Of a stretch of DNA of 64,000 bases, positions 27,085-50,220 are shown piece by piece. Position 1 is the first letter of the stretch. The number at the start of each line of letters is the position of its first letter. The stretch lies in assembly GCF_003852405.1 (NCBI RefSeq), contig NZ_QAJM01000002.1:1-64000 (forward strand), written 5' to 3'. A model generated the notes under the pieces. The model was not told where the DNA came from, did not search any database, and saw only the letters and a program-made list of their open reading frames with translations. Origin of the DNA: Pseudomonas sp. KBW05 (lineage in GTDB: Bacteria > Pseudomonadota > Gammaproteobacteria > Pseudomonadales > Pseudomonadaceae). A program made the position numbers and the translations under genes.

Positions 27085-27119
27085 TCCCCGCCGTAGCGCT
27101 ATCCCCATAACAACAAACA

Positions 27120-31938: not shown

Positions 31939-31978
31939 TTGTGCGCCTATAGATAACATGTTAACTATTGGCGCACAA
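31939..31978. promoter_or_regulatory. 40-bp near-perfect palindrome upstream of feaR
   Basis: The outer arms TTGTGCGCC (31939-31947) and GGCGCACAA (31970-31978) and the inner TAACATGTTA (31954-31963) share the same centre at 31958.5. Only two of twenty base pairs are mismatched. The inner part, GATAACATGTTAAC at 31952-31965, matches the GTTAA-N4-TTAAC repeat seen elsewhere in this region with one mismatch. It ends 27 bp before the feaR ATG. It is probably a regulator-binding site. Confidence 0.7.
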
Positions 31979-32005
31979 AAATAAGCATCGCGTGCGGAGG
32001 TATTC

Positions 32006-32971
32006 ATGAGCATCCATCAGGCTGCCTGGGACGGGTTGGACCACTGGACCACCACCATGCAGGCATTGTGTGGTCGTTTCGAAACCCAACTGGCGTTTAA
32101 TCGCTCGCTGTTTATCGGCGAGATTTCCACCTGGTCCCATGGCGGGCTGTCATTGGCCAATATGCGCACCAATGCTGGCAACATTGTGCGCTACGGTGAT
32201 CGTGCCGATTGCGACAACGACGAACACTGTTTCCTGGTCAGCCAGCGCACCGGTTACTCCCACATCACCCAGGGCGGCGTGACCATCCAGTTGGCGCCCG
32301 GCGACCTGATGCTGATGGATTCGGTCGGTCCTTGCGCCATTGCCCCCCATGGCCTGATCGAGCACGTGTCGCTGTCCTTGTCGCGCGCGCAAGTGCAGCG
32401 CCAGCTCAAAGGCGTGTCGCCGATCTTCGGCAAGATCTCGTCGACCAAAGCCTGCGGGCGCATGCTGCATTTGTTGATGGACCAGGCCTGCAAGGGCAGT
32501 GACGGCAACGACAGCGCGGCGGCCGAGGGTGAAGCCTTGCAGAGTGCCTTTATCCTGCTGTTGGCTTCCGGGTTCGAGCAGGCCGAGGAGAAGACCAACG
32601 ACGCTGCCGTGCTCGGCGGCGTGAACCTGCGCAGCTATGTGCAGAAGGTCATCGACGAGTCCCTGGCCCAGACCAACCTGACACCCGCGTGCCTGGCGGG
32701 GCGCCTGAAAATCTCGGTCAGGCACCTCTACCGACTGTTCGAGGAAGAGGGCGACAGTGTGTGCCGTTACATCCAGCGCGCCAGGCTGGAGCGCAGCGCT
32801 ACGGACCTGGCCAATCCCTTCCTGCGTGCGGAGTCGATCACCTCGATTGCCTATAAGTGGGGGTTTACCGATTCCGCGCACTTCAGCCGTTCCTTCAAAA
32901 AACACTTCGAGCAATCGCCCAAGGATTTCCGCGCGCAGGCGCTCTCGGGCGCCTTGGCCGGTGCCGCCTGA
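32006..32971 (+). CDS. feaR: FeaR, AraC-family activator of aromatic amine catabolism
   Basis: A 321-residue AraC/XylS regulator. The N-terminal effector half (WDGLDHWTTTMQALCGRFET) is the AraC-ligand-binding type of FeaR. The C-terminal double helix-turn-helix is clear (NLTPACLAGRLKISVRHLYRLFEEEGDSV and SITSIAYKWGFTDSAHFSRSFKKHFEQSPKDF). In E. coli FeaR activates feaB and the amine oxidase gene tynA. Here it would turn on the dehydrogenase, hydroxylase and permease. The GGAGG ribosome site fits ATG 32006. Confidence 0.82.
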   Translation: MSIHQAAWDGLDHWTTTMQALCGRFETQLAFNRSLFIGEISTWSHGGLSLANMRTNAGNIVRYGDRADCDNDEHCFLVSQRTGYSHITQGGVTIQLAPGDLMLMDSVGPCAIAPHGLIEHVSLSLSRAQVQRQLKGVSPIFGKISSTKACGRMLHLLMDQACKGSDGNDSAAAEGEALQSAFILLLASGFEQAEEKTNDAAVLGGVNLRSYVQKVIDESLAQTNLTPACLAGRLKISVRHLYRLFEEEGDSVCRYIQRARLERSATDLANPFLRAESITSIAYKWGFTDSAHFSRSFKKHFEQSPKDFRAQALSGALAGAA

Positions 32972-32973
32972 CT

Positions 32974-32987
32974 GTTAATTAATTAAC
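32974..32987. promoter_or_regulatory. HpaR-type operator match, GTTAATTAATTAAC
   Basis: An exact instance of GTTAA-N4-TTAAC between feaR and the Bcr/CflA gene, just upstream of a likely -35 box (TTGACC at 32991-32996). It suggests the exporter is also in the HpaR-type regulon. Prediction only. Confidence 0.5.
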
Positions 32988-33019
32988 GGCTTGACCTTTC
33001 GCCAGGGCATTGGCTAACC

Positions 33020-33060
33020 TCACGACTTCACCCTACCGACCGGTAGGTTGCAAGTCGTGA
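33020..33060. promoter_or_regulatory. Nested palindromic operator of the exporter/TetR pair
   Basis: The inner repeat CCTACCG-AC-CGGTAGG (33032-33047) is the classic TetR-family operator form. It is framed by a second repeat, TCACGACTT (33020-33028) and AAGTCGTGA (33052-33060), on nearly the same centre. The site ends 5 bp before ATG 33065 and lies directly after TTGACC-N18-TAACCT. The TetR-family gene downstream of the exporter is the expected ligand. Confidence 0.75.
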
Positions 33061-33064
33061 GCTT

Positions 33065-34288
33065 ATGATGAAACCGATCAATTCAAACCATCCTTCGTTG
33101 AAATTTGCCGTGGCCTTGGGTGCCATTGGTGCCCTCGGCCCGTCGGCCGTCGACATGTACCTGCCCAGCTTGCCGGAGATGGCGGTGGAGTATTCGGCCA
33201 GCGTGGCCAGTATCCAGCTGACACTCACCGTGTTCCTGCTGGCGATGGGCCTCGGCCAATTGCTGTTCGGCCCTGTCGTCGACGCGTGGGGGCGCAGGCG
33301 CCCATTGATTGCCGGCCTGGCGTTGTTCAGCGTGAGCGCACTGGTGGCCGGTGCAGCACCGACGCTGGACTGGTTGCTGCTGGCGCGCTTCGTTCAGGGG
33401 CTGGGCAGTGCGCTGACCCTGGTGGTGATCATGAGCATGGTGCGTGATGTCACCCAGGGCGTGCAGGCGGCCAAGTTGTTTGGCTTGCTGATGACCATCG
33501 AAGGCGTGGCGCCGATTATCGCGCCGGCACTGGGCGGCTACATTGATGCGCACTTTGGCTGGCGCGCGGTGATGGTGGTACTGGCGGCCCTGGGCGCGTT
33601 GGTGGCGGTCAATTCCATGGTGGTGTTGCGGGAAACGTTGCCCGCGAACAAGCGTGAGCCGCTGAACTTCAAGCGGGCGATCCGCACGTACGCGCGCATC
33701 GCCCAGGACTGGCGTTTTCTGCAACCGGCGCTGGCCCTGTCAGCGGTGTTCTTCTTCCTGTTCGCCTACATCGGCGGGGCGACGTTCATCTACCAGAACG
33801 ACTTCGGGTTGCCCGCTGCCCAGTTTGGTACCCTGTTCGGCGCAACCGGTATTGCGATCCTTGTCGGGGCCTCGCTGGCGGCGAAGCTGGTGGGTAAATA
33901 CGGTCTGGCTACCCTGGCCGTGGCGGGCTCTTGCTGCATCGGCGCCGGTGCGCTCATCGCCTGTGCTGCCGCAGCCGCCGGGCTGGGCTTGTACTGGCTG
34001 GTGGCCGGAGTGGCGCTTGCGTTGCTGGGCGTGGGGATCGCCGAAACCACGCTGATGACCCTGGTGATGTCTTCGCAAACCACCGCGCTGGGTTCGACCG
34101 CCGCGTTGCTGGGGGCTTTTCAACTGGGCATCTCGGCGTGCGCCACACCCCTGACCGGCCTGGTGAGTAACCACGGCGCCACGGCGTGGGGCGGCTTGCT
34201 GGTGCTGTGCGCCGCGGTGGTGGGGTTGCTTACCTGGATCAGCGTGCGCCAAGGCAAGGCGGATCAGGTCACCGCGTTAAATCATTGA
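33065..34288 (+). CDS. Bcr/CflA-family MFS drug exporter
   Basis: A 407-residue proton antiporter with 12 helices. The first loop carries GPSAVDMYLPSLP and the second GPVVDAWGRRRPLIAG, the usual Bcr/CflA signatures, and LLARFVQGLGSAL follows. Two adjacent ATGs (33065, 33068) are possible. It exports drugs or toxic metabolites, here perhaps aromatic amines or acids. It is followed 27 nt later by its TetR-type regulator. Confidence 0.85.
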   Translation: MMKPINSNHPSLKFAVALGAIGALGPSAVDMYLPSLPEMAVEYSASVASIQLTLTVFLLAMGLGQLLFGPVVDAWGRRRPLIAGLALFSVSALVAGAAPTLDWLLLARFVQGLGSALTLVVIMSMVRDVTQGVQAAKLFGLLMTIEGVAPIIAPALGGYIDAHFGWRAVMVVLAALGALVAVNSMVVLRETLPANKREPLNFKRAIRTYARIAQDWRFLQPALALSAVFFFLFAYIGGATFIYQNDFGLPAAQFGTLFGATGIAILVGASLAAKLVGKYGLATLAVAGSCCIGAGALIACAAAAAGLGLYWLVAGVALALLGVGIAETTLMTLVMSSQTTALGSTAALLGAFQLGISACATPLTGLVSNHGATAWGGLLVLCAAVVGLLTWISVRQGKADQVTALNH

Positions 34289-34315
34289 TAAAAGATTGCT
34301 GGCAAGGATATTCAC

Positions 34316-34912
34316 ATGAAAGTGCTCAGCCCTTCAGCGGGCAGAATTTGCGACATCGCCCTGGTGCATTTCGCCGAGCGGGGCTACGACGCCTCCTCAC
34401 TCAACGACATCGCGGTGCTGGCGGGCATGCGCAAGCCGTCGTTGTATGCGCATTTCAAAAGCAAGGATGACCTGTTCAGTGCGGTGCTGGCATTGGCATT
34501 GACCACCGAACGCCAGTACCTCGAGGAGCGGTTTGCCGTGGCTGCCAGCCCTTCGGTTGGCCTTGACACGCTGTACACCGACCACCTTGCGCAGCGCTAT
34601 GAGTCTTCGGCGGCGCTGCGCTTTCTGCTGCGCACAGCGTTTTTTCCACCTGCCGAACTGAAGGGGCAGGTGAGTGCAGGTTTTGAAGCTTACCTTGAGC
34701 GCATGCGCGAACTGTTCGGGATCAGCCTCAAGGCCAAGTACCCCGCGCTGAACGCCACCGATCTCGGGATATTCCAGGACGCGTATATCGGGCTGATCGA
34801 CAGCCTGCACGTCGAGCTGATCTACGGTAACGAGGCCACCTACCGCCGCCGCGTCGCTGCGTTGTGGCGAATCCTCGGGGACTCGATTGCCCTGGCGGCC
34901 GGGCAGGCATAA
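34316..34912 (+). CDS. TetR-family repressor
   Basis: A 198-residue repressor. The helix-turn-helix is at residues about 8-50 (ICDIALVHFAERGYDASSLNDIAVLAGMRKPSLYAHFKSKDDLF), followed by a helical ligand domain. AAGGATATTCAC precedes ATG 34316. It is co-transcribed with the exporter and most likely binds the nested palindrome at 33.02-33.06 kb, forming a self-regulating pair. Confidence 0.85.
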   Translation: MKVLSPSAGRICDIALVHFAERGYDASSLNDIAVLAGMRKPSLYAHFKSKDDLFSAVLALALTTERQYLEERFAVAASPSVGLDTLYTDHLAQRYESSAALRFLLRTAFFPPAELKGQVSAGFEAYLERMRELFGISLKAKYPALNATDLGIFQDAYIGLIDSLHVELIYGNEATYRRRVAALWRILGDSIALAAGQA

Positions 34913-34914
34913 AA

Positions 34915-34943
34915 AAACCACTGCCGAAGATCGGCAGTGGTTT
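34915..34943 (-). terminator. Rho-independent terminator (cupin operon)
   Basis: AAACCACTGCCGA (34915-34927) pairs with TCGGCAGTGGTTT (34931-34943). Read leftwards it ends in seven T residues, so it terminates the leftward FAD-oxidase and cupin genes. It can also slow the rightward TetR transcript. Confidence 0.85.
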
Positions 34944-34965
34944 CAAGGCAGCGACCGCAACGCGA

Positions 34966-35331
34966 TCAAGCGACAGCGAAGTAGTGCTTGACGAACTCTT
35001 CGCTGACGATCTCCCACACCACGGCAGTGCCCTTGGTCACGAACCAGCTGTCACCCACGCCATAACGCGTGCTGTTGCCGGTGGCTTCTTCCGTGAGGAT
35101 GACTTCACCGGTGACGACGGTGGCTTGCTCGTTGAACGGGTATTCCATGCGGAACTTGCCCTTGGTGGTGCCGAAGTAGGCGCTGCTGACCGGGTCGGTG
35201 GGCGCGCCAAAGGTCATTTTGCCAAAGGCTCTGACTTCGCCTTCGAGGATGGTCGAGCCGAGGTCGGCCACGGTGCCCCAGGCATCCAGTGCCGACAGCT
35301 TGACGTGTTGCTCGATAGTGGTAATGGTCAT
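34966..35331 (-). CDS. Small cupin-fold protein (EutQ/DUF861 type)
   Basis: A 121-residue single-domain cupin, all beta-strand in pattern (GEVILTEEATGNSTRYGVGDSWFVTKGTAVVWEIVSEE). It resembles cupin_3 proteins beside amine and amino acid oxidases. It is encoded 34 nt after the FAD oxidase, so the two form one operon ending in a strong terminator. The few His residues make a metal site doubtful. Function unknown; it could bind an aldehyde or amine product. Confidence 0.72.
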   Translation of the reverse strand: MTITTIEQHVKLSALDAWGTVADLGSTILEGEVRAFGKMTFGAPTDPVSSAYFGTTKGKFRMEYPFNEQATVVTGEVILTEEATGNSTRYGVGDSWFVTKGTAVVWEIVSEEFVKHYFAVA

Positions 35332-35365
35332 GGCAGTTCTCCAGTGAGTAGGGTGAGCGGGGCAG

Positions 35366-36664: not shown

Positions 36665-36854
36665 GGCGCGGCCTGAATAGATTGAAAAAACGTCACGACA
36701 AGGCGTTAGCAAGCCCTGTTCCATGGCGTACATTAAGGGCCTAACGAGCGGTAGGTGTCTTGACTGTGCCTGCCTTCGCTTTTGTACCTGCGTGCCATCG
36801 CCAGCGCCAGATGGCTGATGCAGAACCACAGGCTGGGCAGGCTGTGATAAGTTG

Positions 36855-36868
36855 GTTAACGTATTAAC
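36855..36868. promoter_or_regulatory. HpaR-type operator, GTTAACGTATTAAC
   Basis: An exact GTTAA-N4-TTAAC repeat, 20 bp upstream of hpaR1 ATG, so hpaR1 likely represses itself. The divergent FAD-oxidase start lies about 190 bp on the other side. Predicted from the shared motif only. Confidence 0.6.
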
Positions 36869-36888
36869 AAAATAGCTGGCTGTGAAGC

Positions 36889-37311
36889 ATGTCCAAACCC
36901 CGTCCGTCCTTGACCCTCAATCTGCTGCAAGCACGCGAAGTCGCCATGAGCTTTTTCCGGCCTTCACTCAATGAACATGGCCTGACTGAACAGCAGTGGC
37001 GCGTTATCCGCATCCTCACTCAGCAGGGCGAACTGGAAACCAATCGCCTGGCCGACCTGGCCTGCATTCTCAAACCCAGCATGACCGGTGTCCTGAGCCG
37101 TATGGAAGCGGCTGGCCTGGTGCATCGGCGCAAGGCCGACCAGGACCAGCGTCGGGTCTTGGTGACGCTGGCAGCAGGCGGGCAGGCGTGTTTTGCCTCG
37201 ATGAGCGATTGCATGGAGCAAAACTACCAGCGCTTGCAGGAACGCTTCGGCGCCGAGAAACTCCAGACCTTGCTGGCCTTGCTCACAGAACTGAAGGCGA
37301 TCAAGCGCTAA
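36889..37311 (+). CDS. hpaR: HpaR, MarR-family repressor of 4-HPA degradation (copy 1)
   Basis: A 140-residue MarR regulator matching HpaR, the homoprotocatechuate operon repressor (RPSLTLNLLQAREVAMSFFRP start, EQQWRVIRIL, winged helix CILKPSMTGVLSRMEAAGLVHRRK). Such repressors release DNA upon binding 4-HPA or its products. Its gene lies at the 3' end of the leftward hpa operon, with the operator 20 bp before its ATG. A paralogue is present at 47.4 kb, identical at about 90 of 140 positions by my alignment. Both copies keep the DNA-recognition region. Confidence 0.87.
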   Translation: MSKPRPSLTLNLLQAREVAMSFFRPSLNEHGLTEQQWRVIRILTQQGELETNRLADLACILKPSMTGVLSRMEAAGLVHRRKADQDQRRVLVTLAAGGQACFASMSDCMEQNYQRLQERFGAEKLQTLLALLTELKAIKR

Positions 37312-37312
37312 G

Positions 37313-37346
37313 CAAAAAGACCGCTTCATTCACATGAAAGCGGTCT
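37313..37346 (-). terminator. Rho-independent terminator of the hpa operon
   Basis: AGACCGCTT (37318-37326) pairs with AAGCGGTCT (37338-37346) with an inner CAT/ATG extension. Read leftwards the stem is followed by TTTTT. It ends the long leftward hpaG1-to-hpaI transcript just before hpaR1. Confidence 0.83.
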
Positions 37347-37367
37347 GGGTACAGGATGATGCCGGCC

Positions 37368-38171
37368 TTAGTAAACGCCGCCGCCAGCATTGCCGGGCAG
37401 CGGCGAGTCCTTGAATTTACCGGCCAGGGTTTGCAGCCCGCGCATCAGCACAGTGGTGTCGACACCGACCGCGACAAACGCCGCGCCCAGTTCGATATAG
37501 CGGCGGGCCAGGGTTTCGTCAGCGCTCAGAATGCCAGCCGCTTTGCCCGCCCGTTGAATGCGCACGATCGCGTCCTCGATGGCCGCTTGCACGTCAGGAT
37601 GGCCAGGGTTGCCGCGATGGCCCATGGCGGCGCTGAGGTCGGCAGGCCCGATAAACACCCCGTCGACGCCTTCCACTGCAACAATCGCGTCGAGGTTGGC
37701 CAGCCCTTCGGGGTTTTCAATCTGCACCAGCAGGCACATCTGCGCGTTGGCCAACTCCAGATACCCGGGGATGCTGTTCCAGCGCGAAGCCCGCGCCAGC
37801 GCACTGCCAACACCGCGAATGCCCTGGGGCGGATAGTGCATCGCACTCACCAGCTGGCGCGCCTGCTCAGCGCTTTCCACCATCGGCACCAGCAGGGTCT
37901 GCGCGCCAAGGTCCAACACTTGCTTGATCAGCGCCGTATCGCCAATCACCGGGCGAATCACCGGCTGGCTGGCATAGGCCGCCACCGCTTGCAGCTGGCT
38001 CAACATACCGCGCAGGTCGTTGGGCGCATGTTCGCCGTCAATCAACAGCCAATCGAAACCGGCATTGGCCGCCAGTTCGGCGCAATAGGCGTCCGCCAGG
38101 CCCAGCCATAAGCCGATTTGCGCGGTGCCGCTGCCCAGGCGTTGCTTGAAGAGATTTACCGGCATATCCAT
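37368..38171 (-). CDS. hpaI: HpaI, 4-hydroxy-2-oxoheptane-1,7-dioate aldolase
   Basis: Class II (metal-dependent) aldolase of 267 residues that splits the pathway intermediate into pyruvate and succinic semialdehyde. ATG 38171 ([15 protein letters not shown]) is the family start. The motifs [20 protein letters not shown] (metal Glu) and [12 protein letters not shown] are clear. It is the last gene of the hpa operon, 13 nt after hpaH, and ends before a strong terminator. Confidence 0.92.
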
Positions 38172-38184
38172 GACAGGTTCCTCG

Positions 38185-38988
38185 TCAGACAAAACGGCAG
38201 GAGATGGAACCGAGCATGTCGTAGTCGACATGGAAGGTATCGCCGGGATTGGCGGCCACTGGGCGCGTAAACGAGCCGCCCAGGATGATCTGCCCGGGCT
38301 GCAAGGTGACGTCATACGGCGCCAGCTTGTTCGCCAGCCAGGCCACGCCTTTTGCCGGATGGTTAAGCACCGCGGCGGACACCCCGGATTCCTCGATCAC
38401 GCCGTTGCGGTAGAGCACGGCGGGGACTTTGCGCAGGTCGATGTCCGTCGGGCGCACCGCGCGTCCGCCCATGACCACGCCGGCGTTGGCCGCGTTGTCG
38501 GAGATGGTGTCGAACACTTTGCGGGTGGCCTTGGTCTGCGGATCGATTTGCTGGATGCGCGCGTCGATGATCTCCAGGGCGGGGATGACCCATTCGGTCG
38601 CGTCGAGTACGTCGAAAATCGTGCAGTTCGGGCCTTTGAGCGGCTTGCCGAGGATAAAGGCCAGCTCCACTTCGACCCGCGGCACGATAAAGCGGCTGAA
38701 CGGGATGTCGGTGCCTTCGTCAAAAATCATGTCGTCCAGCAGCGCGCCGTAATCCGGTTCGGTGATGTTCGAGGAGACTTGCATCGCGCGCGAAGTCAGG
38801 CCGATCTTGTGGCCGACGAGCTTGCGCCCGTCCTGGATTTTTTTCTCGACCCAGGCCCGTTGAATGGCATAGGCGTCTTCGATGGTGATGTCGGGGTAGT
38901 CCAGGGAAAACTGGCGCACTTGTTCGCCCGTGCGTTCGGCCTGGTCCAGTTGTGCGGCGGCTTGCTTTATCACGCTGGAAGGAAGCAT
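38185..38988 (-). CDS. hpaH: HpaH, 2-oxo-hept-4-ene-1,7-dioate hydratase
   Basis: A 267-residue hydratase of the MhpD family: [13 protein letters not shown] near residue 60, [15 protein letters not shown] near 105 and [26 protein letters not shown] at the end. It adds water to the oxo-hept-4-ene-dioate to give the substrate of the HpaI aldolase. It is the penultimate gene, 12 nt after hpaX. Confidence 0.92.
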
Positions 38989-39000
38989 GTTCAGGGTCTC

Positions 39001-40305
39001 TTACTGTGGATTGACGATGGCGGCCTGGGTGCGCAGCACCAGCAAGGCGCCCAAGGTGATAAAGGCCGCGAGGACATACAGGGCCAGGCTGGCGCTTTGG
39101 GTGTTGTCGCGCATCCAGCCGATCAGGTACGGTGCCAGGAACGACGCAATGCTGCCGAAGGAACTGATCAGGGCGATGCCCGCCGCTTGGGTCGAGTTGG
39201 ATAAGAACGCCGGAGGCAGTTGCCAGAACATCGGCAGGGCGGCACTGGCGCCCATGCCGGCGATGATCAAGCCCGTCATCACCAGCAGCGGGTTGTGTGG
39301 CAGCAGGCCGGCGATGGCAATGCCGGCGGCGGACATCAGCAGCGGCACCAGCAAGTGCCAGCGGCGCTCGCGGCGACGGTCCGAAGAACGCCCGCAGGCG
39401 ATCATGAAAAAACACCCCGCCAGGTACGGCACGGCACTCAGCAGGCCGACCTTGCCATCGCTGCCGATACCGGCGCCGTGGATCAGCGACGGCATCCAGA
39501 ATGCCAGGGTGTTCACCGCCAGCATGACGGCGAAATACACCGCCACCAGGACCCAGACCTGGGTGTCTTTTAGGATGCCGGCAAACGAGGTGATGGCTTT
39601 GCGTTGCTCTTCGCTGTGCAGTTGCTCACGCAGTTGAGCCTTTTGTGCATCGGTCAGCCAGTTCACGCTTTCAAAAGAGTCAGGCAGGCATTTGAGGACC
39701 ACCAGCCCCAGCAGCACCACGGGTGCGCCTTCGATCAGGAACATCCACTGCCAGCCCCGCAGGCCGCCGAAGTCGTGGAAGGCCTCAAGGATGCCACCCG
39801 ACAATGGGCCGCCGATCACCCCGGCCATGGGCACGGCAATCGCGAACAGTGCGGTGACCTGGGCACGCCGGCGCGCCGGGTACCAGCGATTGAGAAACAC
39901 CAGGATGCCCGGGAAGAATCCCGCTTCCGCCACGCCGAGCAAAAAGCGCAATACGTAGAAGCCAGCGGCATCGTTCACGAACAGCATGCTGGTGGACAAA
40001 ATCCCCCATACCACCATCAAGCACGCGATCCAGCGCCGCGGACCGAAACGGTCCAGCGCCAGGTTGCTGGGCACGCCAAACAAGGCATAGGCGACAAAAA
40101 ACAGGCCGGCGCCGAAGCCGTACACGGTATTGCTGAAGTGCAGGTCGGCACTCATCTGCATCTTGGCAAAGCCAATGTTGATGCGGTCCAGGTGGGCAAA
40201 CAGGTAGCACACCAGCAACAGCGGCATGAGCCGCCAGGTGATGGTGCTGTGGGTGTTGTCTTGCGAATGGCGCAAAGGCTGTGTGGCAGTGTTGGCTGTG
40301 CTCAT
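39001..40305 (-). CDS. hpaX: HpaX, 4-hydroxyphenylacetate permease (MFS)
   Basis: Major facilitator of the anion/cation symporter family, 434 residues from ATG 40305 (MSTANTATQPL). It has about 12 helices; the first domain shows FAHLDRINIGFAKMQM and LALDRFGPRRWIA, and RFLLGVAEAGFFPG is the family motif. It probably imports 4-HPA or the related hydroxylated acid. It lies in the middle of the operon between hpaF and hpaH, which supports the substrate. Confidence 0.88.
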   Translation of the reverse strand: MSTANTATQPLRHSQDNTHSTITWRLMPLLLVCYLFAHLDRINIGFAKMQMSADLHFSNTVYGFGAGLFFVAYALFGVPSNLALDRFGPRRWIACLMVVWGILSTSMLFVNDAAGFYVLRFLLGVAEAGFFPGILVFLNRWYPARRRAQVTALFAIAVPMAGVIGGPLSGGILEAFHDFGGLRGWQWMFLIEGAPVVLLGLVVLKCLPDSFESVNWLTDAQKAQLREQLHSEEQRKAITSFAGILKDTQVWVLVAVYFAVMLAVNTLAFWMPSLIHGAGIGSDGKVGLLSAVPYLAGCFFMIACGRSSDRRRERRWHLLVPLLMSAAGIAIAGLLPHNPLLVMTGLIIAGMGASAALPMFWQLPPAFLSNSTQAAGIALISSFGSIASFLAPYLIGWMRDNTQSASLALYVLAAFITLGALLVLRTQAAIVNPQ

Positions 40306-40362
40306 GATGTTGTACTTCTTTTTATATGAGATAGGCACGGGGAGGAGGGCGGCGGGCCGCCC

Positions 40363-40773
40363 TCAAGTGGGTTTGGTGAACAACGGGTGCAGGCTGCTGT
40401 GCTTGGCGTCGTAGACCTGCGCCGCGCTTTCATCGATTTGCAGGGTGATGCCCAGCGGGCGGCGCTGGAGAATCGGCTCAAGATGGGCGCGCAGCACCGC
40501 CAGCAAGCTGTCGCCGACGGCCTGGTGCACCGCTGGGCTGCGGCCGCTGCCCATGCGCAGGTTGGCGTAGCAAAAGCCGTAGTCGCCCTTGCCGTCGGCG
40601 ACGGCGCTGTGGGCCGCCGGGTAGGCCAGCACGCGGGTGCCGCCGGTGGGGAACACGGCTTTGCCGGCCTCGTCGCGCTGTTCCAGCATGGTGTCGGCCA
40701 GGGCACGGCAGAGCGCAGAAACGTCGGTCTCTTGCTCAAGCTCGGGGGTGTAAAGCAGCACCAGGTGCGGCAT
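40363..40773 (-). CDS. hpaF: HpaF, 5-carboxymethyl-2-hydroxymuconate delta-isomerase
   Basis: A 136-residue tautomerase-fold isomerase. Removal of the first Met leaves the catalytic Pro (MPHLVLLYTPEL), as in the family. The later GDYGFCYANLRMGSGRS is conserved. It shifts the double bond of 5-carboxymethyl-2-hydroxymuconate so that the HpaG decarboxylase can act. It is encoded 16 nt after hpaD. Confidence 0.92.
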   Translation of the reverse strand: MPHLVLLYTPELEQETDVSALCRALADTMLEQRDEAGKAVFPTGGTRVLAYPAAHSAVADGKGDYGFCYANLRMGSGRSPAVHQAVGDSLLAVLRAHLEPILQRRPLGITLQIDESAAQVYDAKHSSLHPLFTKPT

Positions 40774-40789
40774 GTCGAGTCTCCTGCGC

Positions 40790-41713
40790 TTAGAGGCGGC
40801 TGGTGGATAACACTGCGCCAGGGTTGGCCGCTTGAGCCGGGGGAATGTTGGCGCCGTCTTGCGGGGTCACCGGGAACACCACGTTGATCTGCCCCGTGCC
40901 GGAGGAACCGAAGTAGGGCGTCAGCACCTCGGCCTTGCCGTCATAGTCGCTCCAGCCCAGCGCGCCAAGGAGCATGGCGGTGTCGTGCATGAACCCTTCG
41001 CCGTGGCCTTTGGCTGCGTATTCCGGGAGCATCCCGCAGAACTCCGGCCACTCGCCGTCCTCCCACATTTTCACCACGCGGTGGTCGAGGGTTTCCAGGA
41101 AGGGGCTCCAGACCTTGGTGGCAAAATCCGGCGCCTGGCCGTTCTGCGCAAAGCGGTGCGACAGCGAGCCGCTGGCGAGGAACGCCACCGTGCCGTCGTA
41201 GTGGTCTTCGACGGCCTTGCGCATGGCCCAGCCCAGGCGCGCGCTGTCCGCCAGATAGTGCGAGGTGCACAGGGCGGACACCGAGATCACCTTGAAGTCC
41301 TGGTTCTGGTTCATGTAGCGCATCGGCACCAGCGTGCCGTACTCCGGGCCGAGGGTGGTGGCATGGTGCGCCATGGTCTCGACCTGGAAACGGTTGCAGG
41401 CTTCGGCGAGCAACAGCCCCAGTTCAGTGTTGCCGGGGAACTCGTACGGCATGTTGCTGATGAAGTGCGGCAGTTCATTGCTGGTGTACACGCCCTTGAA
41501 ATGCGGGCCGCACAGCACGTGGTAATTGGCGTTGACCAGCCAGTGCGTGTCGAACACCACGATGGTATCGACCCCCAGTTCGCGGCAGCGGCGGGCGATT
41601 TCATAGTGGCCGTCGATGGCCGCCTGACGAAAGCCCTGGCGTGGGCCGGGCAGTTCAGAGAGGTACATGGACGGAACGTGGGTAATCTTGGCGGCTAGTG
41701 CCAGCGTGCCCAT
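40790..41713 (-). CDS. hpaD: HpaD, 3,4-dihydroxyphenylacetate 2,3-dioxygenase
   Basis: Class III extradiol (LigB-type) ring-cleavage enzyme of 307 residues from ATG 41713 (MGTLALAAKITHVPS). An early conserved His is in KITHVPS, DTHWLVN follows, and SGSLSHRF marks the later part. It opens the homoprotocatechuate ring to 5-carboxymethyl-2-hydroxymuconate semialdehyde, the substrate of HpaE upstream in the operon. It is the committed step of the meta pathway. Confidence 0.92.
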   Translation of the reverse strand: MGTLALAAKITHVPSMYLSELPGPRQGFRQAAIDGHYEIARRCRELGVDTIVVFDTHWLVNANYHVLCGPHFKGVYTSNELPHFISNMPYEFPGNTELGLLLAEACNRFQVETMAHHATTLGPEYGTLVPMRYMNQNQDFKVISVSALCTSHYLADSARLGWAMRKAVEDHYDGTVAFLASGSLSHRFAQNGQAPDFATKVWSPFLETLDHRVVKMWEDGEWPEFCGMLPEYAAKGHGEGFMHDTAMLLGALGWSDYDGKAEVLTPYFGSSGTGQINVVFPVTPQDGANIPPAQAANPGAVLSTSRL

Positions 41714-41797
41714 GATGAGGCTCCTTTCTTGTTGTTGGGTGCTTGTGCGGCGGTCTTCGACGAATATAAGTGAAGCCCGCCGCACACGGTGGTCCGG

Positions 41798-43258
41798 TTA
41801 CACGCCCCAGCGCGGGATGTGGTGGCTGCCCATCGAGATGCACACGTTCTTGATCTCGGCGAACACTTCAAAGCTGTATTGGCCGCCTTCGCGCCCGGTC
41901 CCCGAGCCTTTTACGCCGCCGAACGGTTGACGCAGGTCACGCACGTTCTGGCTGTTGATGAACACCATGCCGGCCTCGATGCCACGCGCCAGGCGATGGG
42001 CCTTGCCGATGTCCTGGGTCCAGATGTAAGACGCCAGGCCGTACTCGGTGTCGTTGGCCAGTTGCAAGGCTTCGGCTTCGTCCTTGAACGGAATCAGGCA
42101 CACCACCGGGCCGAAGATTTCTTCCTGGGCGATGCGCATGTTGTTGTTCACATCGGCGAACACGGTGGGCTGGATGAACTGCCCCTTGGCCAGATGCGCG
42201 GGCAGGTTGGCCGGGCGCTCAAGGCCGCCCGCCAGCAGGGTGGCGCCTTCTTCAATACCGATCTTGATATAGCCGGTGACCTTGTCGTAGTGGGCCTGGG
42301 TGATCATCGAGCCCACTTGGGTCTTCGGATCTTGCGGGTCACCGACGATCAGGCGCTTGGCTCGCGCGGCGAACTCGGCGACAAAGGCGGGATACACGCT
42401 TTCCTGAATGAACACCCGGCTGCCGGCGGTGCAACGTTCGCCATTCAACGAGAAAATCGTGAACAACGCTGCGTCCAATGCGCGCTCCAGGTCGGCATCT
42501 TCGAAGATCACCACCGGCGATTTGCCACCCAATTCCATCGAGTACTTTTTCAGCCCGGCGGTCTGCATGATCTTCTTGCCGGTGGCCGTACCGCCGGTGA
42601 AGGAAATGGCACGCACATCGGGATGCCGCACCAGTGCGTCACCGGCCGTCGCGCCGTAGCCCTGGATAATGTTGAGCACGCCATTGGGAATGCCGGCCTC
42701 GACGGCCAGGCGCCCCAGTTCGTTGGCGGTGAGCGGTGACAGCTCGGACATTTTCAGCACCGCGGTATTGCCCAGCGCCAGGCACGGCGCGGTCTTCCAG
42801 GTGGCGGTCATGAACGGCACGTTCCATGGCGACACCAGCGCGCACACACCCACCGGCTGGTACAGGGTGTAGTTGAGCATCTGGTCATCGACCGGGTAGG
42901 TGTGGCCGTCCATGCGGGTGCACACTTCGGCGAAGAAATCGAAGTTGTGGGAGGCGCGCGGGATCAACACGTTCTTGGTCTGGTGGATCGGCAAGCCGGT
43001 GTCCAGGGTTTCCAGTTCGGCCAGGTGCGGCACGTTCTGCTCGATCAGCTCGCCCAGTTTGCGCATCAGCTTGGCGCGTTGTGCGGCCGGGGTATTGGCC
43101 CACTTGGGGAAGGCTTCCTTGGCCGCGGCCACGGCTTGCGCGACTTCTTCGGCGCCGCCGCTGGCCACCTCACCAATCGCCTCGCCGGTGGCGGGGTTGT
43201 AGTTGATGAACACGTCTTTGCTTTCGACTTCGCGGCCGTTAATCCAGTGCTTGATCAT
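41798..43258 (-). CDS. hpaE: HpaE, 5-carboxymethyl-2-hydroxymuconic semialdehyde dehydrogenase
   Basis: A 486-residue NAD-dependent aldehyde dehydrogenase. ATG 43258 is preferred: AGAGG stands 10 nt before it, whereas a GTG at 43267 has no proper spacing. The catalytic Glu is in SMELGGKSPV and Cys in NGERCTAGSR. The segment PVGVCALVSPWNVPFMTATWK and the ending ISMGSHHIPRWGV match HpaE. It oxidises the ring-cleavage product to 5-carboxymethyl-2-hydroxymuconate. Confidence 0.93.
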   Translation of the reverse strand: MIKHWINGREVESKDVFINYNPATGEAIGEVASGGAEEVAQAVAAAKEAFPKWANTPAAQRAKLMRKLGELIEQNVPHLAELETLDTGLPIHQTKNVLIPRASHNFDFFAEVCTRMDGHTYPVDDQMLNYTLYQPVGVCALVSPWNVPFMTATWKTAPCLALGNTAVLKMSELSPLTANELGRLAVEAGIPNGVLNIIQGYGATAGDALVRHPDVRAISFTGGTATGKKIMQTAGLKKYSMELGGKSPVVIFEDADLERALDAALFTIFSLNGERCTAGSRVFIQESVYPAFVAEFAARAKRLIVGDPQDPKTQVGSMITQAHYDKVTGYIKIGIEEGATLLAGGLERPANLPAHLAKGQFIQPTVFADVNNNMRIAQEEIFGPVVCLIPFKDEAEALQLANDTEYGLASYIWTQDIGKAHRLARGIEAGMVFINSQNVRDLRQPFGGVKGSGTGREGGQYSFEVFAEIKNVCISMGSHHIPRWGV

Positions 43259-43263
43259 GCTGT

Positions 43264-44064
43264 TCACGCCTCTTGCTCAGCGAGTTTTTTGTTCTTGAGA
43301 GTTTGCTGCTTGAAGAATTCGGTTTCGCTGACAATCCGGTTGACCAGGCGGCCGACGCCCTCGACTTCCACGATCACTTCATCGCCCGGGACCACATCGG
43401 CGAGCCCTTCCGGGGTGCCGGTGGCGATCATGTCGCCCGGTTGCAGGGTCATGAAGCTGGACAGGTATTCGATCAAGTAGGGGATGTCGAAAATCATGTC
43501 TTTGGTGCTGCCTTCCTGGCGCAGCTCGCCGTTGATCCAGGTGCGCAGCTTCAGGTCCGAGGCGTCGGGCAAGTCTGCCACGTCGACGATCCACGGACCG
43601 ACCGGGGTGGTGGCGTCGCGGTTTTTCACGCGCAGGTTGGGGCGGTAGTAGTTTTCCAGGTAATCGCGGATCGCGTAGTCGTTGCACACGGTGTAGCCGG
43701 CCAGGTAGTCCAGCGCATCCTCACGCTTGACGTTGCGGGCAGGTTTGCCGATGACTGCCACCAATTCGCACTCGTAGTGCATGTAGGCGACGTTGTCCGG
43801 GCGCCAGGTGATCTGCTCGTGGCCGGTGTAGGTGCCTACGGATTTCACAAAGGCGAGGGGTTCGGTCGGCGGCGCGAAGGCCAGTTCCGCCGCGTGGTCG
43901 GCGTAGTTCAAGCCCAGGGCGAACATGCTGCCGGTGGCAGGCGGCAGCCACTCGACGGCGCTGGCCGGGACGCGGCGGCCGTCGGCGAGGAGCAGGGTGT
44001 TGTCGTCGCCTTCCACGGTGGCGGCATGAATGGCGCCTTCAAAACGGATACGTGCGTGTCTCAT
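43264..44064 (-). CDS. hpaG2: HpaG2, decarboxylase/isomerase, active FAH-fold half
   Basis: A 266-residue fumarylacetoacetate-hydrolase-fold protein, equivalent to the C-terminal half of E. coli HpcE. It retains the acidic metal ligands (YMHYECELVAVIGK) and GYTVCNDYAIRDYLENYYRPNLRVK. It works with HpaG1 to remove CO2 from the isomerised muconate. Its ATG overlaps the hpaG1 stop (ATGA), so the two are coupled. Confidence 0.9.
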   Translation of the reverse strand: MRHARIRFEGAIHAATVEGDDNTLLLADGRRVPASAVEWLPPATGSMFALGLNYADHAAELAFAPPTEPLAFVKSVGTYTGHEQITWRPDNVAYMHYECELVAVIGKPARNVKREDALDYLAGYTVCNDYAIRDYLENYYRPNLRVKNRDATTPVGPWIVDVADLPDASDLKLRTWINGELRQEGSTKDMIFDIPYLIEYLSSFMTLQPGDMIATGTPEGLADVVPGDEVIVEVEGVGRLVNRIVSETEFFKQQTLKNKKLAEQEA

Positions 44065-44735
44065 ACAGCGGCCTCCTGCTCGGCGACGATGTGATTGACC
44101 AGGCTACCCAGGCCGCTGATCTGCACTTCGACCCGGTCACCCGGCAGCACGTCGACGCGGCCTTCCGGTGTGCCGGTGATCAATACGTCACCGGCGTGCA
44201 GGGTCATGAATTCAGTGATTTCAGCGATCAGTTGCGGGAGGCTGCGCACGAAGTTGGCCGTGGAGTTTTCCTGGCGCAGTTCGCCGTTGACCCACAGCCT
44301 CAGGCTCAAGTCGTGTGGGTTGTTAACCTGGTCGCGGGGAATCAATTCAGGGCCGATCGGGCAAAAACCATCACGGCATTTCGCCTTGACCGCCGGGCGG
44401 TAGTAGCTGTCTTCCGGCAGGCTGAACTCATTGACGATGGTGTAACCGGCCACGTAGTCGAGTGCCTGCGCCTCACTGACGCGGCTGGCGTCTTTGCCGA
44501 TCACCACACCCAGCGCGGGGCCGGGTTGCAGGTGTTGGATACCCGCAGGGTAAATCACTGCCTGATCGTGGCCGTTGCGCGTATTGGGCGTCTTGATAAA
44601 CAACACCGGTTTGACCGGCGGCTGTTTATACGGCGCTTCGTGGAATTGAGCGAGATGCTGATCAACCAGACCCTGGTAGTTCAGTGCAACACCGAACAGG
44701 GTGCCGGTCGCAGCGTCATGCAAGGCACGGCTCAT
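44061..44735 (-). CDS. hpaG1: HpaG1, decarboxylase/isomerase, partner FAH-fold half
   Basis: A 224-residue FAH-fold protein from ATG 44735 (MSRALHDAATGTLF), equivalent to the N-terminal half of E. coli HpcE. The position of the acidic ligands reads PALGVVIGK, with no Glu-x-Glu, as in the E. coli N-terminal domain. The two halves, fused in E. coli, are separate genes here. It is the first gene of the operon, behind the promoter at 44.80 kb. Confidence 0.88.
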   Translation of the reverse strand: MSRALHDAATGTLFGVALNYQGLVDQHLAQFHEAPYKQPPVKPVLFIKTPNTRNGHDQAVIYPAGIQHLQPGPALGVVIGKDASRVSEAQALDYVAGYTIVNEFSLPEDSYYRPAVKAKCRDGFCPIGPELIPRDQVNNPHDLSLRLWVNGELRQENSTANFVRSLPQLIAEITEFMTLHAGDVLITGTPEGRVDVLPGDRVEVQISGLGSLVNHIVAEQEAAV

Positions 44736-44781
44736 GCTTTTCTCCTGGCAGGGGCGGGGCGCGGTTGGCCTCACCTCAATT

Positions 44782-44795
44782 GTTAATGTGTTAAC
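44782..44795. promoter_or_regulatory. HpaR-type operator 1 of the hpaG1/hpaA region
   Basis: GTTAATGTGTTAAC, an exact GTTAA-N4-TTAAC repeat. It lies directly downstream of the hpaG1 -10 box, over the expected transcription start. Confidence 0.68.
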
Positions 44796-44824
44796 GTTAT
44801 AATTAAGATGTTAACGATCGTCAA
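44796..44824 (-). promoter_or_regulatory. Promoter of the hpa catabolic operon
   Basis: Read leftwards: -35 TTGACG at 44824-44819, a 17-nt spacer, and -10 TATAAC at 44801-44796. It is 61 bp upstream of the hpaG1 ATG. A second operator lies within its spacer and the first just past the -10 box, a standard repressor layout. Confidence 0.78.
44802..44815. promoter_or_regulatory. HpaR-type operator 2, inside the hpaG1 promoter spacer
   Basis: ATTAAGATGTTAAC, one mismatch to GTTAA-N4-TTAAC. It starts exactly 20 bp from operator 1, two helical turns, so two dimers could sit on the same face of the DNA. Confidence 0.62.
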
Positions 44825-44911
44825 GGCCTGCGCTGGTGGCGAAAGTCTTTTCGCAGGCGCAACATGAGCGGCGCTGCAGGCGATACCGATAAAAATAATG
44901 AGTACAGACAG

Positions 44912-45814
44912 ATGAATGATCGTCACCCGATCCCCAACATCAACATCGGGCAGGTCTACGACCAGCGCTACAGCGACAGCGAGGTGCACTACGACAAGCT
45001 GGGCAACCTCGCCGGCTTTTTCGGGCGCAATATGCCGGTGCATCGGCACGACCGTTTTTTCCAGGTGCACTACGTCAAAAGCGGCGCGGTGCGTGTCTAC
45101 CTTGACGACCAGCAATACCTGGAGTCGGGGCCGATGTTTTTCCTCACGCCGCCGACGATCCCCCATTCGTTCGTCACCGAAGCCGACAGCGACGGGCATG
45201 TGTTGACGGTGCGCCAGCAACTGGTCTGGCAATTGATCGAGAGTGACCCGCAATTGGCACCGGGCTCGCAATTGGCGGCGGCGTGTGTTGCGCTGGATCG
45301 GCTGGCCCCCGAATACCAGGGCGAAGCGCGGCGCTTGGCATTTTTGTTCGAAGAGTTGCGCGTCGAGATGAACAACACGGCGGCAGGTCACAGCGCGGCG
45401 CTGTTGAGCCTGACGCGCTTGATCATGATCAGCCTGTTGCGCCTGTGCGCCAACTCCCTGGAGGCAACACCCGCGCGCCATGAGGACCTGCAGATCTTCC
45501 ATCGCTTCAACGAGCTGATCGAAGCCCATTACCTTGAGCACTGGGCGTTGGCACGTTATGCGCAGGCCGCAGGCGTCACGGAGGCAAGGCTTAATGACGT
45601 GTGCCGGCGTATCGCCGACTTGCCCTCCAAGCGCCTGGTGCTTGAGCGCGTCATGCAGGAAGCCAAGCGTTTGTTGCTGTTTACACGGGGTTCGGCCAAC
45701 GAAATCTGCTACCAGCTGGGCTTCAAGGACCCGGCTTACTTCAGCCGTTTTTTCCAGCGCTACGCCCACATGACCCCGGGGGAGTATCGGCAACGTCAGG
45801 CGGGTTTGCGCTAG
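44912..45814 (+). CDS. hpaA: HpaA, AraC-family activator of the 4-HPA pathway
   Basis: A 300-residue regulator from ATG 44912 (MNDRHPIPNINIGQVYD). The N-terminal cupin (about 25-105) carries HRHDRFFQVHYVKSG. The C-terminal double helix-turn-helix includes ARYAQAAGVTEARLNDVCRRI and NEICYQLGFKDPAYFSRFFQRYAHMTPGEYR. In E. coli W, HpaA activates the hydroxylase genes in response to 4-HPA. Here it is divergent from the operon and could answer to the same inducer, giving activator and repressor control. Confidence 0.85.
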   Translation: MNDRHPIPNINIGQVYDQRYSDSEVHYDKLGNLAGFFGRNMPVHRHDRFFQVHYVKSGAVRVYLDDQQYLESGPMFFLTPPTIPHSFVTEADSDGHVLTVRQQLVWQLIESDPQLAPGSQLAAACVALDRLAPEYQGEARRLAFLFEELRVEMNNTAAGHSAALLSLTRLIMISLLRLCANSLEATPARHEDLQIFHRFNELIEAHYLEHWALARYAQAAGVTEARLNDVCRRIADLPSKRLVLERVMQEAKRLLLFTRGSANEICYQLGFKDPAYFSRFFQRYAHMTPGEYRQRQAGLR

Positions 45815-45854
45815 CGTCAGCATCGGTCTGTTCCGTCTTCATCCAACGGCTGCG

Positions 45855-45875
45855 AAAAAACCGCGCAGGGCGCGG
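45855..45875 (-). terminator. Rho-independent terminator of the second porin
   Basis: CCGCGC (45861-45866) pairs with GCGCGG (45870-45875). Read leftwards it is followed by six T residues. It ends the leftward porin transcript (stop at 45960) and lies beyond the 3' end of hpaA. Confidence 0.75.
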
Positions 45876-45959
45876 CTGAAGAAAGAGAGACCCATGCTGA
45901 TGGATTTTACGCGGCACGGACATGCGCTTTACGGTGGATCGATTGCACTTTCCACGGCG

Positions 45960-47216
45960 TTAGAACAGCGACAGGTTGTAGCCCACGATCAGCCGGGTTT
46001 CGTCGATGTCGGTGGTCAAGCCGCCGCCGGAGCGCAGCGTCGCATTGCGCAGACGGATGTTGAGGTTCTTGAACGTGCCGCTCTGCACCACGTAGCTCAG
46101 GTCTGTGTCTCGCTCGCGCTCGGTGCCGCCACTGACGCGGTTGGTGTCGATGTGGGAACCGCTGACGTAACGGGTCATGAAGGTCAGCCCCGGCAGGCCC
46201 ATGGCGGCGAAGTTGTAGTCGTACCGCAGCTGCCAGGCGTCGGTTTCGGCTTTGGTGAAGACGTTGATCGTGACCAGGTTGACGGAGTAGGGGTCAAGGC
46301 CCGGGTAGGCGAAATCACCTTGGCCCGACAGGTTCTGATACCCCACGCCGAGTCGATGACCGCCGATGCTCAAGCTTTCCATGCCGTTGAAGAACCGGTT
46401 GTTGATCCGCCCGCCATCCACGCGGGTGGCGGCGCGCAGGCGGTGGTCGCCGTCTTCACGGGTGACGAAGTAGCGTAGGTCCGAGCGCAAGCTGACCCCA
46501 CCGCCCAGGGGCATATCGTGGGTAAAACCGGCGAAGTCCTGGCTGTAGATGTCCTTCATGCGCGCATGGTAGTAGCTCGCGGTGAGCGTCGGGGTCAGCG
46601 CATAGCTGCCGCCGGCCAGGTCCAGATAGCGGGTGTTGACGCCGGCGTAGCTCATGGAATCGTTGCTGCTGGAGTCCCGCAGGTTCTGTTGTTCCAGGCG
46701 GCCGAGGTTTACGGTCAAACCGCCGACTTCCTTGGAGGTGATGAGTTCGCCGCTGTAGGTGGAGGGCAGCAGGCGCGTGTCGTTGAACGCGGCCACCGGC
46801 AGTTGCGGTTGCAGGGTGCCCACTTTCAGCACGGTCTGCGACAAGCGCACTTTGCCGGTCAGCCCTAGCTCGCTGTAACTGTCGGCAGCTCGGCCACTGG
46901 CGCCGTAGGGCAACAGGCCAGTGCCGTGGCGGTCCGGGCTTGAGTCCAGCTTGAGCCCCAGCTGGCCCAGCGCATCCAGGCCGAACCCCAGTGTGCCGTC
47001 GGTGAAGCCGGACTCATAACGCAAGACCAGGCCCTGGGCCCATTCGGTGGCTTGGCTTTGCGGCGCATTTGCCTGGCGATAGTCGCGGTTGAAGTAGTAA
47101 TTGCGGGTTTCCAGCGTGGCCTTGCTGTCCTGGATAAAGTCGGCAAAGGCCTGGAACGGGAGGGCGGTGGTGCACAGGCTCAATGAGGCCAAAGCACTGC
47201 GGGTGCTGACGCGCAT
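45960..47216 (-). CDS. OprD-family porin of the aromatic region
   Basis: A 418-residue porin with a signal peptide (MRVSTRSALASLSLCTTALPFQAFA) and the typical OprD start DFIQDSKATLETRNYYFNRDYR. It ends in Phe (YNLSLF). It probably takes up 4-HPA or related acids and faces hpaR2 across a 207-bp divergent region that holds an HpaR-type repeat. This is the second OprD porin in the window; the other belongs to the omega-amino module. Confidence 0.87.
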   Translation of the reverse strand: MRVSTRSALASLSLCTTALPFQAFADFIQDSKATLETRNYYFNRDYRQANAPQSQATEWAQGLVLRYESGFTDGTLGFGLDALGQLGLKLDSSPDRHGTGLLPYGASGRAADSYSELGLTGKVRLSQTVLKVGTLQPQLPVAAFNDTRLLPSTYSGELITSKEVGGLTVNLGRLEQQNLRDSSSNDSMSYAGVNTRYLDLAGGSYALTPTLTASYYHARMKDIYSQDFAGFTHDMPLGGGVSLRSDLRYFVTREDGDHRLRAATRVDGGRINNRFFNGMESLSIGGHRLGVGYQNLSGQGDFAYPGLDPYSVNLVTINVFTKAETDAWQLRYDYNFAAMGLPGLTFMTRYVSGSHIDTNRVSGGTERERDTDLSYVVQSGTFKNLNIRLRNATLRSGGGLTTDIDETRLIVGYNLSLF

Positions 47217-47280
47217 GGGGGTGATTCCTTGTTGTTTTTATTGGGATCGTTGGCAGGGACTATGGGTGCCCCTTTGTGTC

Positions 47281-47294
47281 GTTAACATATTATC
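47281..47294. promoter_or_regulatory. HpaR-type operator between porin and hpaR2
   Basis: GTTAACATATTATC, one mismatch to GTTAA-N4-TTAAC. It lies 65 bp upstream of the porin ATG and 130 bp before hpaR2. Read leftwards a weak TTGCTT-N17-TATGTT promoter overlaps it. Confidence 0.55.
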
Positions 47295-47423: not shown

Positions 47424-47846
47424 ATGGCCAATCCCAGACCTTCTCTGACCCTCACATTGCTCCAGGCACGCGAGGCCGCAATGGCCTTCTTCCGTCCAGG
47501 GCTCAACGAACACGACCTGACCGAGCAGCAATGGCGGGTGATCCGCATCCTGCGTCAGCAGGGCGAACTGGAAAGCCATCAGCTGGCCAACCAGGCGTGC
47601 ATTCTCAAACCCAGCATGAGCGGTGTGTTAAAGCGCCTTGAGCGCGATGGTCTGGTAACACGGCGCAAATCCACCGAGGATCAGCGGCGTATCTTTCTCA
47701 GCCTGACGGTGCAGGGGCATCAGTGCTTCCTGTCGATGAGCGAGGGCATGGAGCGCGGTTATCTGGAGATCCAGCGTCAGTTTGGCGAAGACAACATGCA
47801 GCAGTTGCTTGAGTTGCTGGGCGAGCTGAAAAAGATCAAGCCTTGA
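47424..47846 (+). CDS. HpaR paralogue (MarR family, copy 2)
   Basis: A 140-residue MarR regulator from ATG 47424 (MANPRPSLTLTLLQAREAAMAFFRP). It is collinear with HpaR copy 1 and identical at about 64 percent of positions by eye. The recognition region (ACILKPSMSGVLKRLERDGLVTRRK) is nearly the same; the effector half (about 83-140) differs more. It may repress the porin and itself, or bind a different inducer. A duplication inside the cluster is the simplest origin. Confidence 0.85.
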   Translation: MANPRPSLTLTLLQAREAAMAFFRPGLNEHDLTEQQWRVIRILRQQGELESHQLANQACILKPSMSGVLKRLERDGLVTRRKSTEDQRRIFLSLTVQGHQCFLSMSEGMERGYLEIQRQFGEDNMQQLLELLGELKKIKP

Positions 47847-50078: not shown

Positions 50079-50220
50079 GGCAGAAGTCCTGTGGGAGAGG
50101 GTGCTGGCAAAAGCCGGTTTGTGTTAAGTTGAATGCATTAAATGTGAAATAAATAACATTGTAAATGGATTTTGTGAGCCGTTTTGTCATTCGGCCACAA
50201 TCGATCAGGGTGAAAGCGCA

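Follow-up and report, generated by a model that had tools for sequence, protein, structure and literature searches.

Recurrent HpaR operator-like palindromes in Pseudomonas sp. KBW05 suggest that the amine-catabolism activator gene feaR shares a repressor with the hydroxyphenylacetate pathway

In Yersinia pseudotuberculosis, the MarR-family repressor HpaR protects two TTAA-N4-TTAA-bearing sites in the hpaG1 promoter, centred at -8 and -189, and this operator is presented as "similar to E. coli W" in the available excerpts of the report (PMC7180172). According to Arcos 2010, as cited in the same excerpts, Pseudomonas putida U carries a hydroxyphenylacetate (hpa) cluster, hpaRBCIHXFDEG2G1AY, in which HpaR represses the meta operon, coupled to tyramine and dopamine breakdown; the cited passages do not state any HpaR control of an amine activator (PMC7180172). 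A related design is found in Sphingobium SYK-6, where the MarR-type repressor DesR acts on similar inverted repeats at several catabolic promoters and at its own gene, although its operator sequence and ligands differ and the excerpted passages mention no control of an upstream activator (PMC6888825). Here, we analysed a 64,000-base stretch of Pseudomonas sp. KBW05 (positions 1 to 64,000 of contig NZ_QAJM01000002.1, hereafter the window), which holds a cluster similar to that of P. putida U, from the same genus, and in which the palindrome GTTAA-N4-TTAAC recurs. Judging from these sites, their conservation and their positions on promoters, it is quite likely that HpaR represses hpaG1/hpaA, hpaR1, the activator gene feaR and probably a porin gene, with an acid formed downstream gating the activator of amine breakdown.

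The locus shares with Yersinia and E. coli W a MarR-family HpaR, a TTAA-N4-TTAA operator, two sites and an operator over the -10 region (PMC7180172). It differs in that the core promoter carries both sites, 20 bp from each other, against a position of -189 for one of the Yersinia sites, and in that two HpaR genes are present and that feaR and the porin gene also carry operator-like sites. In E. coli SE11, ATTAACATATTAAT lies directly upstream of hpaG; compared with O2 of the window (GTTAACATCTTAAT when read along the strand of hpaG1), it shows two differences in 14 positions. Given this site and the Yersinia footprint, TTAA-N4-TTAA is a known operator and not a new one; the new part is the site at feaR. 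The published footprint, the E. coli hpaG site and the co-occurrence of motif and HpaR described below all back the earlier proposal that HpaR binds these sequences, and there is a good probability that HpaR is their regulator. In the literature library searched, queries pairing hpaR with amine oxidase, with porin and hydroxyphenylacetate, or with regulon and RegPrecise returned no paper.

Scanning of the window at up to one mismatch gave six matches, three exact and three with one mismatch, and no seventh anywhere in the 64,000 bases, exactly as the original prediction had placed and classified them. The exact copies are GTTAATTAATTAAC (32974..32987), 2 bp past the feaR stop codon and 77 bp before the ATG of an exporter gene, GTTAACGTATTAAC (36855..36868), 20 bp before the hpaR1 ATG and also upstream of a divergent FAD (flavin adenine dinucleotide) oxidase gene, and GTTAATGTGTTAAC (44782..44795), the candidate operator O1, directly downstream of the hpaG1 -10 hexamer. 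Those with one mismatch are GATAACATGTTAAC (31952..31965), centred 47 bp before the feaR ATG, ATTAAGATGTTAAC (44802..44815), the candidate operator O2, within the 17-bp spacer of the hpaG1 promoter, and GTTAACATATTATC (47281..47294), in the intergenic region that the porin gene and hpaR2 share, at a distance of 64 bp from the porin start and 129 bp from the ATG of hpaR2. The full TTAA-N4-TTAA is present at 32974, 36855, 44782 and 44802, and one of its outer bases is missing at the feaR and porin sites. Dinucleotide shuffles of the window contained a mean of 0.23 matches and at most 2 (100 shuffles). The whole genome (6,517,586 bases, 69 contigs) holds 26 sites at up to one mismatch, 4 of them exact; a single stretch of 15.3 kb accounts for six of all these sites and for three of the exact ones. 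With the remaining 20 genome sites setting the background rate, the Poisson probability of at least six sites in 15.3 kb is about 1.5e-11. The motif is thus not equally common throughout the genome, its clustering being far above the rate of the whole genome, which was scanned with coding and intergenic DNA taken together. AT-rich palindromes in themselves are not unusual in this genome, which contains the backwards pattern at 75 sites; the remarkable feature is the clustering.

A weight matrix built solely from sites at the hpaG1 and hpaR1 promoters of relatives (48 distinct sequences) ranked these six sites as the top six of the window, with scores of 29.6, 29.4, 28.2, 26.6, 22.3 and 17.2. 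The positions in seventh and eighth place, at 14.6 and 10.6, overlap with them, and the best independent one, at 50144, scored 8.4, against a maximum of 13.5 over 20 shuffles. The feaR site came fourth (26.6), the porin site scored 22.3, and the copy at 32974 was the lowest of the six (17.2).

Conservation was assessed in a genus sample of 150 genomes, of which 46 carry HpaR and 45, all among these 46, carry the pathway marker HpaE. The counts are of promoters, not genomes (the 41 hpaG1 promoters, for instance, come from 40 genomes), and leave out our own genome. Repeated rows were dropped, as were matches below 45% identity (hpaF excepted), matches starting beyond residue 30 of the query and those with less than 150 bp of upstream DNA; the hpaG1 and hpaR1 promoters of genome G076 stand outside these counts. 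A named set, built from the best 80 matches (73 loci), partly shares its species with the anonymous genus set. Class-wide searches (274 genomes, own included) found HpaR in 6 genomes and FeaR in 1 and were too sparse for use.

The homoprotocatechuate meta-cleavage operon hpaG1-G2-E-D-F-X-H-I (37368..44774, minus strand; the start of hpaG1 is uncertain) is preceded by a promoter that can be read directly on the minus strand, TTGACG - 17 bp - TATAAC, with its -35 hexamer at 44819..44824 and its -10 hexamer at 44796..44801. It was not among the 3 promoter-like sites returned by a generic scan, for which 3.7 were expected. Among the 41 promoters of relatives, TATAA follows O2 in 40, the order TTGAC[GC]-O2-TATAA is kept in 36, and two TTAA-N4-TTAA units are found in 37, at a step of 20 bp in 28 and 21 bp in 9, that is, two helical turns. 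At up to one mismatch, a site was present in 40/41 hpaG1 promoters, in 37/41 promoters of the divergent hpaA (44864..45814, plus strand; TIGR02297 HpaA, 434.8 bits, cut-off 274.65), mostly in the same intergenic DNA, in 26/27 hpaR1 promoters and in 15/26 promoters of the FAD oxidase gene divergent from hpaR1. The backwards pattern at the same threshold gave 0 for hpaG1, 1 for hpaR1, 0 for feaR and 0 or 1 for each other gene. No site was found at this threshold before hpaE, hpaX, hpaI, hpaH, hpaD or the permease gene of relatives; the cupin gene had 2/28 and tetR 1/15. The named set behaves likewise, with sites at 51/51 hpaG1, 36/37 hpaR1, 13/14 feaR and 26/32 FAD oxidase promoters. HpaR control of the meta-cleavage operon, as proposed earlier, and of hpaA is supported by site conservation, and most relatives keep the sites at the hpaG1, hpaR1 and feaR promoters.

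The gene feaR (32006..32971, plus strand) encodes an AraC-family activator of amine catabolism (NF007243 FeaR, 373.1 bits, cut-off 199). Its site is conserved at up to one mismatch in 34/40 relatives and at up to two in 40/40, two control patterns at up to two mismatches giving 5 and 9. GATAACATGTTAAC or its turned form occurs in most relatives, with a centre 44-48 bp before the feaR ATG in 29/40 (range 25-71); the core TAACATGTTA is found in 39/40 and TAACATATTA in the remaining one. The FeaR proteins of these relatives are only 51-74% identical. Moreover, the site is kept where feaR is unlinked from hpaR, about 306, 96 and 274 kb away in G102, G104 and G110, respectively. This conservation supports the earlier claim that the amine activator gene belongs to the shared control. 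The distribution of a 12-mer from the site, TAACATGTTAAY, follows that of the repressor: it occurs in 43 of the 150 genomes, comprising 42 of the 46 with HpaR and 1 of the 104 without. The HpaR-bearing genomes that miss it are G030, G072, G079 and G089; FeaR matches exceeding 50% identity are also missing from the last three, and G030 shows just a partial, stop-containing FeaR match. The sole HpaR-lacking genome with the 12-mer, G138, has ATTAACATGTTAAT (L172, 6972-6985) between an AraC-family gene and a gene for an OYE-type flavoenzyme.

Additional copies of the core precede FeaR-family paralogues in G009, G130, G065, G059 and, in the form TAATATGTTA, G010, as well as an OprD porin gene in G009 and a Rieske-type gene in G129. 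In G059 (L166, 5867-5876 and 8176-8185), TAACATGTTA lies before both the FeaR-family paralogue and an FAD oxidase gene 71% identical to that of the window, pointing to a possible second amine locus that shares this control. In the window itself, the feaR site forms the centre of a 38-bp near-palindrome, TGTGCGCC...GGCGCACA (31940-31977). This larger structure was dropped as an explanation of the site, its outer arms not being kept in relatives beyond the operator, and so was a terminator, with the run of T on the wrong side.

HpaR control of the porin gene (OprD family, 45960..47216, minus strand; PF03573, E 1.2e-142) is backed in part. Porin promoters of relatives carry a site at up to one mismatch in 4/10 cases and at up to two in 8/10, the two controls at up to two mismatches giving 3 and 1; conservation is partial. 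The full TTAA-N4-TTAA is present in 2/10, and the named set has 3/4 at up to one mismatch. The exporter (Bcr/CflA-family efflux MFS transporter, 33065..34288, plus strand; TIGR00710, 246 bits, cut-off 200.9) fares differently. Its gene was found in 31 of 399 genus genomes, and in 30 loci compared, own included, a TTAA-type site at up to one mismatch was limited to our own genome, G009 and G071, i.e. to 2/29 relatives. The two closest orthologues (79-80% identity) have no site at this threshold, and the other sets gave 1/9 promoters of relatives and 0/2 of the named set. A TetR-like palindrome, CCTACCGACCGGTAGG (33032-33047), precedes the exporter gene, and an ACC..GGT palindrome, loosely defined and modelled on that of the window, lies within 75 bp of the exporter start in 28/30 loci (27/29 relatives). 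A recognised TetR gene flanks the exporter in 22/30 loci including our own (21/29 relatives). The exporter is best read as TetR-controlled and was rejected as an HpaR regulon member, contrary to the original prediction; since the 32974 site is not conserved, it is doubtful as an operator. Relative to the classical regulon, the predicted one would gain feaR and perhaps the porin gene; the exporter is probably not a member.

The claim that both repressor genes belong to the regulon is supported for hpaR1; for hpaR2 the picture is mixed. The two paralogues, hpaR1 (36889..37311, plus strand; TIGR02337 HpaR, 180.4 bits) and hpaR2 (47424..47846, plus strand; 182.1 bits; cut-off 121.2 for both), lie about 10.5 kb apart and encode proteins that are 65% identical; both types occur within about 8-11 kb on one contig in 18 of the 46 HpaR-bearing genus genomes, own included. 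Sites before hpaR2 were found in 10/45 relatives at up to one mismatch and in 26/45 at up to two (controls 7 and 7 at up to two), and the named set gave 9/60 and 27/60. The result depends on context. Where both HpaR types are present with no porin gene between, there are 0/17 sites at up to one mismatch, 4/17 at up to two (control 2/17) and no full TTAA-N4-TTAA; with the porin gene between, the counts are 2/6 and 6/6; and where hpaR2 is the only HpaR type, 8/22 promoters have a site at up to one mismatch and 11/22 the full TTAA-N4-TTAA. It seems from these promoters that hpaR2 keeps its own operator mainly where it is the sole HpaR. A tree built from 75 HpaR rows groups HpaR1, the type encoded next to hpaI, in a single clade of 27 rows (99/99), so that the HpaR1 type probably arose once; the tree rests on 140 columns, with unsettled bootstrap, poorly supported deeper forks and three rows on long branches. 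We lean slightly towards a genus-wide scheme in which HpaR directly represses feaR across Pseudomonas, thereby letting a downstream aromatic acid gate the entry of its own precursor amines, and in which HpaR1 arose once and took over autoregulation, the other copy losing its operator where both were kept.

According to the proposed circuit, HpaR dimers bound in the -35/-10 spacer of hpaG1 and just past the -10 hexamer would obstruct RNA polymerase at the promoter of the meta-cleavage operon, and perhaps at that of hpaA as well, and a dimer before hpaR1 would provide autoregulation. The same HpaR could act near the start of feaR, whose product would here activate tyramine/phenylethylamine-type amine breakdown, and at the outer-membrane porin gene. 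A hydroxyphenylacetate-type acid would presumably lift HpaR from DNA; in that case, amine breakdown would, through its product, boost its own activator, creating a product-gated positive loop atop ordinary repression. If this is true, the repressor of the lower route (hydroxyphenylacetates) also controls the activator of the upper route (aromatic amines) in a large genus. The analysis also provides a defined operator and sets its likely targets (hpaG1/hpaA, hpaR1, feaR and perhaps the porin gene) apart from the unsupported exporter.

Several observations weigh against this circuit. Only 1/40 relatives has the full TTAA-N4-TTAA before feaR, and the centre of the site is nearly always CATG; the lost outer base together with this centre may reflect a second constraint or another protein. 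FeaR orthologues (>50% identity) were found only in HpaR-bearing genomes (42/46), and since they never occur here without HpaR, co-occurrence cannot decide which of the two is the binder. The Fisher test applied takes no account of how the species are related. The site is absent from the feaR-feaB region of E. coli K-12 and from 4/4 members of a distant FeaR subfamily inside HpaR-bearing genomes, and it is missing before hpaR1 in G065. Finally, the 4-hydroxyphenylacetate hydroxylase oxygenase promoter carries a site at up to one mismatch in 3/33 cases only, so that HpaR would not act over the whole route and the hydroxylase seems generally outside its control; in E. coli, the activator of the hydroxylase is HpaA, according to the same excerpts (PMC7180172).

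The main rival explanation makes FeaR or its paralogues the binders of the feaR-type sites (TAACATGTTA), acting by autoregulation, with HpaR operators limited to the hpa sites and the likeness between the two coincidental. It accounts for the core copies before FeaR-family paralogues in five genomes and before the G059 FAD oxidase gene, for the close co-occurrence of FeaR and HpaR, and for a feaR site that differs in kind from the hpa sites. The same core, however, precedes OprD porin genes, and eight genomes with HpaR (G003, G009, G010, G032, G052, G113, G130 and G134) contain other FeaR paralogues, 42-47% identical, that have no TAACATGTTAAY beside them in a search limited to this 12-mer, which indicates that the core does not simply track FeaR-family genes. 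FeaR-family genes of HpaR-lacking genomes also have no site (7/7, as 3/3 and 4/4), though all are distant subfamilies. Furthermore, a matrix that had seen only hpaG1 and hpaR1 sites still placed the feaR site fourth in the window, and AraC-family proteins usually bind direct repeats, which counts against FeaR as the reader of a palindrome. We regard this explanation as unlikely.

The regulon as originally proposed, with all six sites serving as HpaR operators, the exporter and hpaR2 included, also appears improbable. Chance would hardly place an exact copy at 32974, since only 52 exact copies occur in 104 HpaR-lacking genomes; in addition, ATTAATCTATTAAC lies 3 bp past the feaR stop in G128 and GTTAAATTATTACC before the exporter gene in G009. 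G128, however, has no recognised exporter gene after feaR, and among exporter relatives the site is rare (2/29, with none in the closest two) and the ACC..GGT palindrome (27/29) and TetR gene (21/29) are frequent. Similarly, the full TTAA-N4-TTAA in half of the promoters where hpaR2 is alone (11/22) is countered by site counts of 0/17 at up to one mismatch and, at up to two, 4/17 versus 2/17 for the control, where both types occur with no porin gene between. A chance cluster or an AT-rich structural element unrelated to HpaR could be imagined from the 20 further genome sites and the 75 backwards-pattern sites, but the clustering (P about 1.5e-11), the conservation at orthologous promoters, the near-zero controls at up to one mismatch and the footprint published on the same motif (excerpts of PMC7180172) leave this option hardly credible. 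HpaR repression of hpaG1/hpaA, hpaR1, feaR and probably the porin gene thus remains our preferred reading.

Similar arrangements were observed in two other genera. In Marinobacter halodurans (L206), GTTAACATATTAAT lies between hpaG1 and hpaR, and ATTAACATGTTAAT precedes an FAD oxidase-cupin-feaR block adjoining the hpa genes. In Acinetobacter sp. ANC 4558 (L205), GTTAATATATTAAT precedes hpaR and an exact GTTAAGGGATTAAC lies between hpaG2 and hpaE.

The leader of feaR contains a further short element, AANAANAA (31977-31984), which we take to be the Hfq/Crc catabolite-control motif; it recurs before the flavin reductase gene (27109-27116) and the hydroxylase oxygenase gene (25896-25903). It lies between the operator and the feaR start in 39/41 leaders, own included, and in 0/41 equal stretches just before the operator. 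It is also frequent in the leaders of the hydroxylase oxygenase (31/33), porin (10/11) and flavin reductase (14/18) genes, less so for hpaE (9/42) and hpaG1 (7/42); for most of the remaining genes the count is 0 or 1. The likely p-hydroxyphenylacetate hydroxylase oxygenase gene itself is on the plus strand at about 25915-27084 (Pfam Acyl-CoA_dh_2 match), and a minus-strand frame of 406 amino acids (25777-27108) lies antisense to it. The gene names used for the meta-cleavage operon are assumed or taken over from the original prediction, and the name hpaE was found on matched E. coli records. Lastly, an ACIL-PS--G stretch is identical across 7 aligned HpaR proteins and is presumably part of their DNA-reading helix.

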